Positions 59,024-63,734 of a stretch of DNA of 64,000 nucleotides are shown in pieces. The stretch's first letter is position 1, and every line of letters begins with the position of its first letter. The notes under the pieces were generated by a model. The model ran no database searches and was not told where the DNA came from. It worked only from the letters and a program-made list of their open reading frames with translations. The position numbers were made by a program, and so were the translations under genes. The DNA comes from Pseudomonas gozinkensis. GTDB lineage: Bacteria > Pseudomonadota > Gammaproteobacteria > Pseudomonadales > Pseudomonadaceae. The stretch spans positions 3,064,501 to 3,128,500 of the forward strand of contig NZ_CP062253.1 of assembly GCF_014863585.1 (NCBI RefSeq), read 5' to 3'.

Positions 59024-60847
59024 TCATATCCATTTTATGCTTTTGATCCAGCAGCCTTGGTCTGTTTCGTTCTTGGCGTCCCACTCAAAGGAGCCAATAA
59101 AACGCCCGGCAGGTGCGTTGTACCGCAAGAGAGTAATGCCGTCATTGGAAACTGGAATGAATACGGCTGACAGGGGTTGCCCGTTGATGTCATAAAACCT
59201 CACCGAGTTGCTGGAAGACGAGTTATAGAGGTGGTATAGCTCAACGCTGGATGACTGCCCGTACTCCCAGCTAAACCTGATTGAGCAATTGTAGTGGATA
59301 TTCATAGTGGTTTTGCCCAATCCTGGATATCCCACTGCTGCATACAGGCCACTCACTCCACCGTTGGTTGCCGCTCTGATTGTGGTAACGGTCAAACCAC
59401 TTTTCAGGGTCACGGGCGATCCTGTTGGAAACTCAGTTCCGGGTAATGCTTGTTCCCAGTCCTCATAGCCAGAAATAATGACCCGATAATTTTTCTGGGG
59501 AAAGAGCACGGCTTCTGAGTAGTTTGGGATATCGGAGAAATTTAATTTGAATGAGAGGTTGAGGTTGCTGCCAGCGAGAAGCGAGTTCAACCAACTTACC
59601 GGCGCGGAGCGAATCAGTCCCGGCCCTGAGCTCAGAGGTTCTCCTTTCAAATCGTCATAAACAACCGTCGCTCCATTTTTATCGATTCCCGTATATTTCA
59701 GCCATCCCGTCTGCCCTGACTGCTGATGTGGCCACGCAGCCAACCGAAATTGGGATGTTGGGAGCAGCTTCGCAAGATCCAGATCCGGCGACTCGATCTC
59801 GTCGATCCTCCCCACTGGGAGTGCCGAGTCGGAATCCGTAATTCTGTCCACCGAACCGTCGAGTTTCTCCGACTCATACGAATTGCCATTGCGAAAGAAC
59901 TGATAAAAAAACGTGATCGGTTTACCCATGTTCGCGGCAATGAACGCACTGTCCAGCGCGAAATTGGCGCGTTTGTTGGTATTGAAAGGGATCGCAGTGA
60001 AGGTCGGAGAACCGACGCCGGGAGCGCCCTGGACGATCATTTTCGCGGTGTCACCTGGAAGGGCATCGAGCACTTCCGCCTGGGCGTTGGCACCCTGGAG
60101 GTTGGCCGGGTCCAGTGGGTCTAGCTTCCCGGCAATCGACTTCTGAAACCGTGGCGCAAAAAGATCGGGCAGAGGGACACCGATCACTTGCGCTGTGGCA
60201 GTGTCCGAGTCGCCCACCGGTGTTGTTCCTCTGAGCAATTTGTAGTCGATCAGCACCGTGGCCCCGGTCGAGAAAAGGTTGTTCGCCGCCTGCAGGACAA
60301 GTGGTTGTTTCTGCCCGAACTGATCAGTGGCGACAGTTCCGCTGAGCGGAACCACCACGTCCGGCACGTTCGGCATTTTGACCGTGACGGTGGCATTGAC
60401 CGTGTCACCCGCCTCGAAGCGGTTGTCAGCGGTCAGCACGATCACCTGCAGCGGGTTCTTGCCGAGCAACGCCAGATCAATAAAACGAGGATCGTCAGTC
60501 GGGTCGTCCTGCCGCTCGCGGGGGATTGGTGCGGGCAGCTTGTTCACGTCGGTTACCGTCAGGATCCATGAGTCTGTAGCAGGCAAACTCGTATTTGCCC
60601 GCAACTCGAGCCTGTACGAGCCGGGAGCCGGATTGAGGATCGTCTCGATGAACTCGCCACTGGCGTTATACGTTTTACCTGTGATCAGAGGCACACTGTT
60701 GTTGGTAATTACGTAAGGCCCACCCGGCGGGCCACCCATCCCTCCGATTCGAAATCCTGCAGTCGGTGCGCTGCCCGGGTTCGGTATGGGGGTTCCGCCC
60801 AGCGTCTCGCAAAATTTAAACGTCGGAATCGGGGTGCTCATGGACAA
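59024..60847 (-). CDS. Large beta-rich protein of unknown function
   Basis: 607 residues. No signal peptide, no TM segment. Repeated immunoglobulin-like stretches: GDTVNATVTVKMPNVPDVVV with a GTVATDQFG strand, GDTAKMIVQGAPGVGSPTFT, and a VTVTDV-type strand earlier; the C-terminal 140 residues (SIRFSWEYGQ to DQGCWIKSIKWI) look like a separate beta-sandwich. Glycine/proline-rich start (GGMGGPPGGPY). Not recognised; similar proteins are common in fluorescent pseudomonads as I recall. AT-richer than its neighbours. The palindrome at 60930-60947 lies 83 bp upstream and may control it. Confidence 0.8.
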   Translation of the reverse strand: MSMSTPIPTFKFCETLGGTPIPNPGSAPTAGFRIGGMGGPPGGPYVITNNSVPLITGKTYNASGEFIETILNPAPGSYRLELRANTSLPATDSWILTVTDVNKLPAPIPRERQDDPTDDPRFIDLALLGKNPLQVIVLTADNRFEAGDTVNATVTVKMPNVPDVVVPLSGTVATDQFGQKQPLVLQAANNLFSTGATVLIDYKLLRGTTPVGDSDTATAQVIGVPLPDLFAPRFQKSIAGKLDPLDPANLQGANAQAEVLDALPGDTAKMIVQGAPGVGSPTFTAIPFNTNKRANFALDSAFIAANMGKPITFFYQFFRNGNSYESEKLDGSVDRITDSDSALPVGRIDEIESPDLDLAKLLPTSQFRLAAWPHQQSGQTGWLKYTGIDKNGATVVYDDLKGEPLSSGPGLIRSAPVSWLNSLLAGSNLNLSFKLNFSDIPNYSEAVLFPQKNYRVIISGYEDWEQALPGTEFPTGSPVTLKSGLTVTTIRAATNGGVSGLYAAVGYPGLGKTTMNIHYNCSIRFSWEYGQSSSVELYHLYNSSSSNSVRFYDINGQPLSAVFIPVSNDGITLLRYNAPAGRFIGSFEWDAKNETDQGCWIKSIKWI

Positions 60848-61024: not shown

Positions 61025-61396
61025 TCAAGCCGCCGAATCCGTAGCCACCTCCAGGTTATCCAGCACCCGATTCACCGCCAGTTCGCCCAGCATGATCAGT
61101 TGTGCGATCCCCAAAAGTACATGCCGGTGCGAGCCGTCCACCAGCCCGGCGAAGTCGTTGGCCATGGTTTTGGCCGAGGTCAGGGTTTCGCAGGCGTCGG
61201 CCAGCAGTTCTTCGCTGTCGATACCGGGGGCGATGAGGTAGCGGGTGCCGGGTTTGAGCAGCGGTTTTCGGGGGAGCAGCGGATTGAGGTAATGGTCGAG
61301 GGCGCGTTCGGCGGCTTCGTGGAATTTCTTGGAATCGAGGGTTTCGTAGGGTGAGGTTGGATCGGTTTCGGGTGGGTTTGGCGTTGGTTTGATCAT
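61025..61396 (-). CDS. DUF6124-family small protein
   Basis: 123 residues. Pseudomonas-typical start KPTPNPPETDP followed by FHEAAERALDHYLNP, and a C-terminal helical part LLGIAQLIMLGELAVNRVLD, the features of DUF6124. GGGAG precedes the ATG. Function unknown. Its mRNA would carry the long structured leader at 61421-61652, so expression is probably controlled at RNA level. Divergent from the GNAT gene. Confidence 0.8.
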   Translation of the reverse strand: MIKPTPNPPETDPTSPYETLDSKKFHEAAERALDHYLNPLLPRKPLLKPGTRYLIAPGIDSEELLADACETLTSAKTMANDFAGLVDGSHRHVLLGIAQLIMLGELAVNRVLDNLEVATDSAA

Positions 61397-61420
61397 GGTA
61401 AAACTCCCTGATTGATGGAG

Positions 61421-61523
61421 CTGCCACGGTTCGCTGCGAAACGAAGGGAGGTGGCAGTTGTACGCGGGTTCGCAGACCGGGAATCAAGGAACCCGGCATA
61501 CCCGAGGGTATCCCGCGCACAAC
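61421..61523 (-). ncRNA. Structured leader RNA of the DUF6124 gene, proximal part
   Basis: On the minus strand: an outer 12-bp stem (61512-61523 with 61457-61468) closes a junction holding two hairpins, AUACC-CUCG-GGUAU (61498-61511) and a CCGGG/CCCGG stem (61477-61496). Then a 7-bp CUGCCAC/GUGGCAG stem (61451-61457 with 61421-61427). The one mismatch in the outer stem on the plus strand (A.C) is a G.U pair on the minus strand, which indicates the minus strand is the RNA. The ribosome-binding site of the DUF6124 gene follows 13 bases later. Confidence 0.6.
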
Positions 61524-61533
61524 CGCCATTACG

Positions 61534-61652
61534 CGTTCAGCCAAAATGCTGAACGGAAACGACACGCTGGGCGCCTTGATTGATCCGGGCTGCGAAACCC
61601 GATCGCTGATTCATCAGCGACCCGGAAACGATAGAGCCCGCCCTCAAGGCGC
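61534..61652 (-). ncRNA. Structured leader RNA, distal part
   Basis: Three more foldings: an 8-bp hairpin CGTTCAGC/GCTGAACG (61534-61541, 61548-61555), a 9-bp closing stem GCGCCTTGA/TCAAGGCGC (61571-61579, 61644-61652) enclosing a 6-bp CGGGCT/AGCCCG stem (61586-61591, 61635-61640) and a 7-bp TCGCTGA/TCAGCGA hairpin with a 4-nt loop (61603-61620). No protein is supported in 61397-61805, so this RNA fills most of the gap. Confidence 0.5.
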
Positions 61653-61805
61653 ACAAGCCGGCGGATTCTGGCGGATGCGTAGGCAATGGCGCAAGGCGTT
61701 GTGGCTTGCCGGACGTTTCGGGCAACGGCTTTAAACAGTCATGGCGAATCCGTGAAAAAGCGGTTTACAGTGACCGGCCACGCACTGATCCAGGAGGGAT
61801 CTTTC

Positions 61806-63287: not shown

Positions 63288-63734
63288 TCAGGGTGCAGCT
63301 TCAGGTAACGGCTTTTCGTGGTTACAGCCTTCTGCCACTGTTTTTGAAAGCCCTACGTCAGGACGCCAGGGCTCCAGGTTCCATTCCGGTTTGTCCCGGG
63401 CAACCATCAGATGACAGATCAACTGGTGGCGCAGGCCATGGGTGTTTGTCCAGTAACGGCTGTTGGAATAATCACGGGTGAGCTCGTCCCATAAATAGGC
63501 CGTGCCCTCCGGAGGTGTCCGTCTGGCACAGTCGGTTGGCTTGATGGAAAGCGTCCACTCGTAGCTCCGGTAGATCCATTGCGCGCTGGCGACGTAACTC
63601 GTGCAGCGCTCCACCGTCTGGATGTAGCTGTCCGCGTCTGTGCGCATGGATGCGCGCATGTCGGGCGGTGTCTTCGCCACTTGCGAACAACCGGCAAGCA
63701 GCGCTATCGCAAGTGCGTAGATCATTTTTTGCAT
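63288..63734 (-). CDS. DUF2599-domain lipoprotein
   Basis: 148 residues. Lipobox LLAGCS. Domain features of DUF2599: RCTSYVASAQWIYRSYEWTL, LWDELTRDY, RYWTNTHGLRHQLICHLMVA and KPEWNLEPWRPDV, with the conserved His/Cys and Trp residues. Function of the family is unknown. Directly upstream of the halovibrin-like gene, so the two probably act together at the cell surface. Confidence 0.75.
   Translation of the reverse strand: MQKMIYALAIALLAGCSQVAKTPPDMRASMRTDADSYIQTVERCTSYVASAQWIYRSYEWTLSIKPTDCARRTPPEGTAYLWDELTRDYSNSRYWTNTHGLRHQLICHLMVARDKPEWNLEPWRPDVGLSKTVAEGCNHEKPLPEAAP

Follow-up and report, generated by a model that had tools for sequence, protein, structure and literature searches.

The window analysed here, a stretch of 64,000 nucleotides of the Pseudomonas gozinkensis chromosome, carries a gene for a DUF6124 protein of 123 amino acids (PF19619; 61025-61396, ATG at 61396; 82.9 bits, E 1.5e-23) preceded by a structured leader. 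All parts of this unit lie on the minus strand: first the promoter-like hexamers, then a1/b1, C4, a2/b2 placed over the ribosome-binding site, and finally the DUF6124 gene; as we read it, the element begins near 61656 and ends with the ribosome-binding site (61404-61409). The putative promoter (61628-61656) is made of the hexamers TTGTGC (61656-61651) and TATCGT (61633-61628) with a 17-nt spacer. The upstream target element, c4-a1b1 (RF03163; 61582-61634), scores 52.5 bits against a cut-off of 46.7, and its match includes a 5' hairpin, UCGCUGAUGAAUCAGCGA (61603-61620). The b1 site, CGGGUUUCGCAG (61590-61601), lies in a hairpin loop and is complementary to loop b of C4 with one bulge, and the a1 site, AAUCAAGG (61574-61581), is complementary to loop a. 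A spacer hairpin of the minimum-energy fold (61534-61555) stands between a1b1 and the C4 antisense RNA (RF01695; 61447-61533), which is matched over the full length of the model (1-87) with 84.2 bits (cut-off 45; E 2.3e-16) and has three helices. Its 13-nt loop a, GUUCCUUGAUUCC (61480-61492; given in the anatomy of the unit as CCUUGAUU), is the hypervariable specificity loop, and the loop b region is CUGCGAACCCG (61465-61475). Downstream, the hairpin UUCG-UUUCGCAG-CGAA (61430-61445) displays the b2 site, and the a2 site, AAUCAGGGAG (61404-61413), overlaps the Shine-Dalgarno sequence of the DUF6124 gene. The sequence-only reading had described a multi-stem leader of an RNA family that it could not name; comparison with Rfam supplies two names, both over cut-off, and the element is more than such a leader, namely an antisense RNA plus two copies of its target.

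That the leader folds was borne out: the minus strand of 61400-61660 has a predicted energy of -125.8 kcal/mol (z -5.28), whereas its shuffles average -97.1 and none of 200 did as well. The plus strand of the same stretch is nearly as foldable (z -4.97), so energy alone is no guide to the strand. The choice of the minus strand as the folded form, made earlier from a mismatch in the proximal outer stem, agrees with the alignment, where two G.U pairs of that stem would be A.C on the plus strand, and with both Rfam models, which match the minus strand. The leader was also rightly assigned to the DUF6124 gene, which lies just downstream (61396-61025). The proposed fold stands only in part: the leader folds, but one strand of the distal closing stem of the minimum-energy structure is GCGCCUUGA, a stretch that starts at the end of the -35-like hexamer and reaches into the spacer preceding the -10-like one. 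If the hexamers are a promoter, this strand is untranscribed and the distal closing helix is absent from the RNA, outside which it probably lies.

The helices of C4 covary, as had been anticipated. When the 30 copies from this genome are aligned, 16 of the 25 pairs changed on both sides and 95.3% of the cells are paired, a result obtained in none of 500 shuffles; slid controls gave 35 to 49% of cells paired. The short third helix shows no two-sided change and was missing from the prediction of RNAalifold alone. The outer stem of C4 starts with GGC, which resembles the GGW/GGC sites described in excerpts of PMC5320573. The loops are predicted to be open: over the 30 loci, the mean unpaired probability is 0.68 for loop a, against 0.24 for the remainder of C4, and 0.89 for the first six bases of loop b. 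For the a2 sites, prediction gives no greater accessibility than for the remainder of the target leader (mean unpaired 0.51 vs 0.52), and a joint fold of C4 with its target, which left C4 closed, was excluded as evidence.

The exact pair TTGTGC-17-TATCGT occurs at 7 of the 30 C4 loci of this genome, and at 17 of the 30 once the variants TTGTAC and TAACTT, TATTGT or TTTCGT are included with the same 17-nt spacing, a pattern that we devised after viewing the loci; an eighteenth match, with 16 nt, is probably due to chance. A strict scan for consensus sigma-70 sites found no promoter. At 17 of the 30 loci, the word GTTTAAA or GTTTAAG occurs 169-222 nt upstream of C4 and upstream of the promoter-like hexamers, near the point where similarity between copies ends, and could be a regulator site or an insertion boundary. 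A weak terminator-like site (61575-61561) lies near the spacer hairpin; the scanned stretch has two such sites, where 1.2 are expected. A T-run of at least five within the 60 nt before C4 is present at only 1 of 22 DUF6124-type loci of this genome, against 35 of 58 C4 loci of other genomes, which makes a separately terminated upstream RNA less likely here.

The unit belongs to a large set. The genome (one contig, 6.56 Mb) has 32 matches to C4 (30 over cut-off), 29 to a1b1 (10 over cut-off), and 28 to DUF6124 (27 over cut-off), and 14 control genomes had no C4, no a1b1, and no DUF6124. A repeated link between leader and gene had been predicted and is pronounced: a C4 lies on the same strand within 400 nt upstream of 23 of the 28 DUF6124 matches, where random placement gives a mean of 0.03 and a maximum of 2 (2,000 trials), and an a1b1 element lies within 120 nt upstream of 27 of the 32 C4. 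Among the other DUF6124 matches, one is parted from its C4 by an insertion that starts in the first codons and leaves the two about 1.6 kb apart (L010, G000:C1:2811000-2815000), two are intact genes without a recognised C4 (L033 and L034), one has a decayed start (L032), and one is partial (L035). Some C4 precede other genes: DUF3077, as had also been foreseen (L003), a frame of 53 aa and, after it, a DUF3077 match (L002), a Bro-N antirepressor (L008), or a tentative group of proteins of about 90-110 aa (L012, L014, L028, L029 and L030), the others being 20-32% identical to the L012 protein. For the L012 member, 58 homologues are listed; none of the five members in this genome has a Pfam match over cut-off. 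L048 and L055 were also placed in this tentative group downstream of C4.

The association extends through the genus, where C4 was found in 184 and DUF6124 in 158 of 199 genomes. Across the phylum, C4 occurs in 62 of 398 genomes and 41 of 212 genera, and DUF6124 over cut-off in 6 of 398 genomes, all of Pseudomonas. The per-genome counts are lower bounds, set by the number of candidates scored (20 for C4 and 29 for DUF6124 in the genus, 10 and 15 in the phylum), and within the genus a good many genomes are at that ceiling. Among the best 80 of at least 570 relatives in public genomes, all titled Pseudomonas, 78 DUF6124 loci have a C4 just upstream, and the remaining two, L354 and L395, lie at contig ends with only 130 and 41 nt of upstream sequence. 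DUF6124 was found in 1 of 50,697 phage records and in none of 72,556 plasmid records; predicted viral contigs contain relatives at 64 loci, some of which lie close to a contig end. Another lineage (G291, G494 and G584; L133-L142) has at least eight C4 per genome, before small proteins most of which look alike by eye; one of these was checked and has no Pfam match. In these genomes, a complementary run of at least seven was present upstream at 7 and downstream at 1 of the 10 loci read, so the layout is not identical everywhere. A further small-protein partner is found at L157 (G024:C45), where a stretch of about 1.1 kb contains three C4 units that precede short frames and a protein of 71 aa.

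Loop a is different in all 30 copies listed for this genome, and its targets change with it. Over the 30 loci, the predicted duplex of loop a with the ribosome-binding region is stronger for own pairs than for others (-13.08 vs -8.31 kcal/mol), as it is with the upstream region (-11.40 vs -9.03 kcal/mol), and the same holds for loop b downstream (-9.67 vs -7.73 kcal/mol) and upstream (-14.71 vs -9.68 kcal/mol for non-cognate pairs), with 0 of 10,000 permutations in each of the four comparisons. In the unit of the window, the downstream loop-a duplex (-11.6 kcal/mol, with one G.U) is the fifth best of 30 targets and the upstream one the best among the targets for its loop. We also counted exact Watson-Crick matches of at least seven at the downstream site in own and swapped pairs. 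Such runs occur in 18 of 30 own and 33 of 870 swapped pairs of this genome. The 58 loci from other searches reduce to 41 distinct loops, with runs in 34 of 41 own and 83 of 1640 swapped pairs, and the 78 named loci reduce to 38, with runs in 20 of 38 own and 100 of 1406 swapped pairs; in both sets, none of 10,000 permutations reached the own mean. Genome G010 gives 16 of 22 against 25 of 462, by counts alone. Summed over the four sites, 24 of the 30 C4 RNAs pair best with their own target and the other 6 pair better with that of another unit, so that prediction makes the set orthogonal for the most part but not throughout. Downstream, loop a forms no good duplex in L029 and L020 and a weak one in L012. 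Since loop a and both its targets change together, each unit should be mainly self-regulating, and about thirty such units should operate in one chromosome with limited cross-talk.

Specificity appears to be separable from the gene it accompanies. In the tandem pair L024/L025, the 75 nt before a1b1 are identical, the coding sequences are 95% identical, and the 3' flank is identical for 125 nt, and in between the cassette of about 200 nt that runs from b1 to before the start codon is only 59% alike, each copy having its own matched loop and targets. Over 12 same-locus pairs in 7 clusters, which are not a random sample because we chose tandem clusters for near-equal scores suggesting recent duplicates, coding identity is 88-100% and cassette identity 53-84%, with the 75 nt upstream 95-100% identical in 10 of the 12. 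Cassettes of close relatives are only slightly more alike than those of distant ones: within this genome, mean cassette identity is 63.8% (57-71) for the nine pairs with coding identity of at least 85% and 58.6% (sd 4.5) for the 226 pairs below 75%. Among within-genome pairs with coding identity of at least 85%, cassettes are at most 72% identical in 24 of 26, and one further pair has 84% with another loop; the exception is L100/L122 of G016, with a cassette identity of 96% and both genes intact. This pair, together with L172/L176 of G010, which have loop a in common and differ in loop b, breaks a strict rule that we had considered, by which co-resident intact genes would never share a specificity. 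Between genomes, cassettes are at least 81% identical in 5 of 18 pairs with coding identity of at least 85%. Conversely, L152.4 and the L017 copy of this genome, in different genomes, have similar cassettes (94%) before different genes (coding 73%), and the loop a of the window recurs at six loci of the named set. Because cassette and gene identities disagree in this way, specificity behaves as a module separable from the gene, and the cassettes may well have been exchanged by recombination. The comparison kept 45 units (23 from this genome); L153.1, L154.2, L125, L128, the three C4 of L157, and the L002, L007, L008, L010, L019, L028 and L029 copies of this genome were left out for having no ATG frame or no a1b1 anchor recognised by script, with L153, L154 and L157 afterwards read by eye, and the pair count within and between genomes omitted L169 as well and set the cassette start of the single G010 loci slightly differently.

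Our computations establish the RNA family, the order of the parts, the covariation of the helices, the concerted change of loops and targets, the linkage to DUF6124, the multiplication, and the differing cassettes. Very probably, the leader belongs to a family of C4-type antisense switches that has multiplied in the genome and represses DUF6124, its units being self-contained and largely orthogonal. One promoter would give a transcript with b1/a1, then C4, then b2/a2 over the ribosome-binding site of the gene. C4 would probably be excised from it, presumably by RNase P, and its loops a and b would pair with b2/a2 and block translation of DUF6124. The upstream a1/b1 would also bind C4, as a decoy setting the balance, and its release here would need a cut at the 5' end of C4.

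The immunity region of P1 and P7 has the order a1/b1, C4, a2/b2, gene, and the unit described here has the same order, with a target over the ribosome-binding site, as well as a sequence and fold over both cut-offs (RF01695 and RF03163) and specificity in loops a and b. In P1/P7, c4 pairs around the ribosome-binding site of the ant mRNA and translation is blocked, according to excerpts of PMC12197685. Our units differ in that DUF6124 stands in the place of the phage antirepressor operon icd/ant, in that they are chromosomal, with about thirty copies and no phage gene among the tested neighbours of the unit in the window, and in that specificities differ between copies and cassettes look exchanged. 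The change of partner bears on the biological role, not on membership in the RNA family.

A large C4-like set with a variable loop in one genome is itself not new. The Group 1 sRNAs of Acinetobacter baumannii AB5075 comprise 21 C4-like RNAs with a variable a' loop, and the excerpted text of PMC5320573 suggests processing from RNA sequencing, identifies no target, and proposes other bacterial transcripts or phages. Compared with what is excerpted there, most C4 copies here sit between two matching targets, usually before a DUF6124 gene. A second relative is IsrK (RF01394), a short Salmonella RNA from Gifsy-1 that pairs in trans with its own downstream operon and raises translation (PMC4825925, in part), much as a C4 decoy would. 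In three loci, Rfam isrK overlaps c4-a1b1 and the spacer just upstream of C4, both over cut-off (L043:1399-1485, L045:1399-1485, L063:1402-1485), and isrK also exceeds its cut-off in L077. Together with the action of IsrK in trans, this overlap lends support to the decoy idea. The overlap and a Xylella table in the consulted portion of PMC12189769, which lists isrK beside C4, suggest that Salmonella IsrK may be the leader of a C4-type antirepressor operon. The window differs, since its isrK match (61621-61557) scores 33.7 against a cut-off of 50 and the IsrK partner genes are orf45/anrP (PMC4825925, in part). A full-text search of PMC4825925 did not return the term 'C4 antisense'.

The copies might instead be addiction modules similar to type I toxin-antitoxin systems, in which DUF6124 would be harmful, C4 would be its RNA antitoxin, and selfish copies would gain from specificities not yet covered in the cell. 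We regard this as possible, if rather improbable. A small gene with an antisense RNA directed at its start fits the idea, as do the different cassettes of 24 of 26 near-identical co-resident gene pairs. So do two same-locus pairs with near-identical leaders, L153.1/2 (99.5%) and L154.1/2 (96.8%), in each of which one copy has lost its gene start. Most type I toxins are hydrophobic and have fewer than 60 aa, whereas DUF6124, with 123 aa, is not short, and the antisense RNA lies in the same transcript instead of on the opposite strand. Moreover, L100/L122 of G016 keep both genes intact with the same cassette, and the two intact DUF6124 genes without C4 argue, weakly, against strong toxicity. The Salmonella IsrK locus gives the idea a parallel, for expression of the antirepressor under its control results in a toxic protein (PMC4825925, in part).

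Superinfection immunity, with C4 acting in trans on the a/b targets of phage antirepressors and DUF6124 being secondary, is a less likely account. C4 does belong to P1/P7 immunity (excerpts of PMC5320573 and PMC12197685). In this genome the L008 C4 precedes a Bro-N antirepressor, and by eye others in the genus precede similar proteins. The 13-nt loop a of the window is identical to that of a C4 in a predicted viral contig (L259), which is followed by a short peptide that we take to be Icd-like, but loop b of that copy differs from that of the window. When the loops of this genome were compared with 48 distinct viral ribosome-binding regions, matches of at least eight were found for 5 of 30 loops, against a shuffled mean of 5.29, hence there is no excess of matches to phage targets; a single exact pattern served to collect the viral set, whose 102 sites reduce to 48 distinct loops. 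The hypothesis that the loops were tuned to phage targets was thus set aside, matches to viral C4 targets being no commoner for own loops than for shuffled ones.

Still more doubtful is a purely cis-acting leader, of the attenuator or riboswitch kind, which would release no free antisense RNA. In its favour, a single transcript would contain all the parts, so that cis pairing of C4 with a2/b2 is conceivable. Yet the family is matched at full length, and its prototype is a separate antisense RNA acting on the ant mRNA (PMC12197685 and PMC5320573, both in part). C4 is moreover a closed, covarying unit with loops predicted to be open, and sequencing reads from such transcripts of A. baumannii fall far more often in C4 than upstream of it, as reported in excerpts of PMC5320573. 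That the copies are decaying prophage remnants without function is hardly credible: C4 is known from phages, broken units exist (L010, with its insertion; L019, with a stop; L031, with an in-frame stop; L032; L153.1; L154.2), and DUF6124 relatives occur at 64 loci in predicted viral contigs, but loop, both targets and helices have stayed in step despite extensive change, C4 is linked to 78 of the best 80 of at least 570 relatives, the tested neighbours are a GNAT gene, a LysR gene and a 607-aa gene without Pfam match, and DUF6124 is found in 1 of 50,697 phage and 0 of 72,556 plasmid records.

If the leader is a unit of self-contained antisense switches, DUF6124 gains a specific predicted regulatory mechanism, and for one genus there is a predicted answer to the Acinetobacter question of what multiplied C4 RNAs with variable loops target. 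Some thirty natural cognate pairs in one cell could reveal how few base pairs separate independent antisense circuits, and that near-identical genes differ in their cassettes needs a selective explanation and offers a way to test one. The C4 family and a multi-copy C4-like set in A. baumannii were already known; as far as our searches show, the layout with own targets and DUF6124, the scale in Pseudomonas, and the separability of cassette and gene are new. No paper linking C4 to DUF6124 or DUF3077 was found in the titles and abstract starts of the open-access literature, a search that covers few subscription papers. We also offer a speculation that we hold to be unlikely, that the copies form a recombining RNA immunity repertoire, in which about thirty switches per genome, each in control of a DUF6124-type effector, would serve together as RNA-sensing tripwires. 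Were it true, targets on the transcript of an invader would titrate the one C4 that they match and so free its effector, and the cassettes of about 200 nt would be swapped between near-identical genes and drawn from a pool common to different species.

The DUF6124 protein may be a toxin, an effector or a plain regulator. It has 1,255 homologues at E up to 0.001, and its structural model is mainly a helical hairpin (helices 22-37, 61-85 and 89-114) with a mean pLDDT of 72.4 and block means of 85-94 over residues 61-110. The model has no significant match among PDB folds (best E 0.34), and the protein of the window has none in PHROGs, NCBIfam or PADLOC, nor by sequence in the PDB. DUF6124 and DUF3077 are possibly related, with a Pfam cross-match of E 1.7e-4, below the curated cut-off, and a profile comparison of E 4e-4 and probability 34%. 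A relation of the L012 group to these families was not shown.

The unit stands in a variable part of the chromosome. Beside it lies a 607-aa gene without Pfam match (59024-60847, minus strand), and the GNAT and LysR genes that flank both adjoin each other in five relatives (L101-L105), so that about 58.9-61.75 kb, with this unit and the 607-aa gene, is accessory DNA. No phage gene was found among the neighbours tested, which were these three. G016 has the unit of the window at 94% identity and, beyond it, 104 nt at 75% that reach part of the 607-aa gene. Similarity to the L017 copy extends to 60850, just before the start of the 607-aa gene. Farther along, at 63288-63734 on the minus strand, the window encodes a DUF2599 protein whose start resembles, by eye, a lipoprotein signal.
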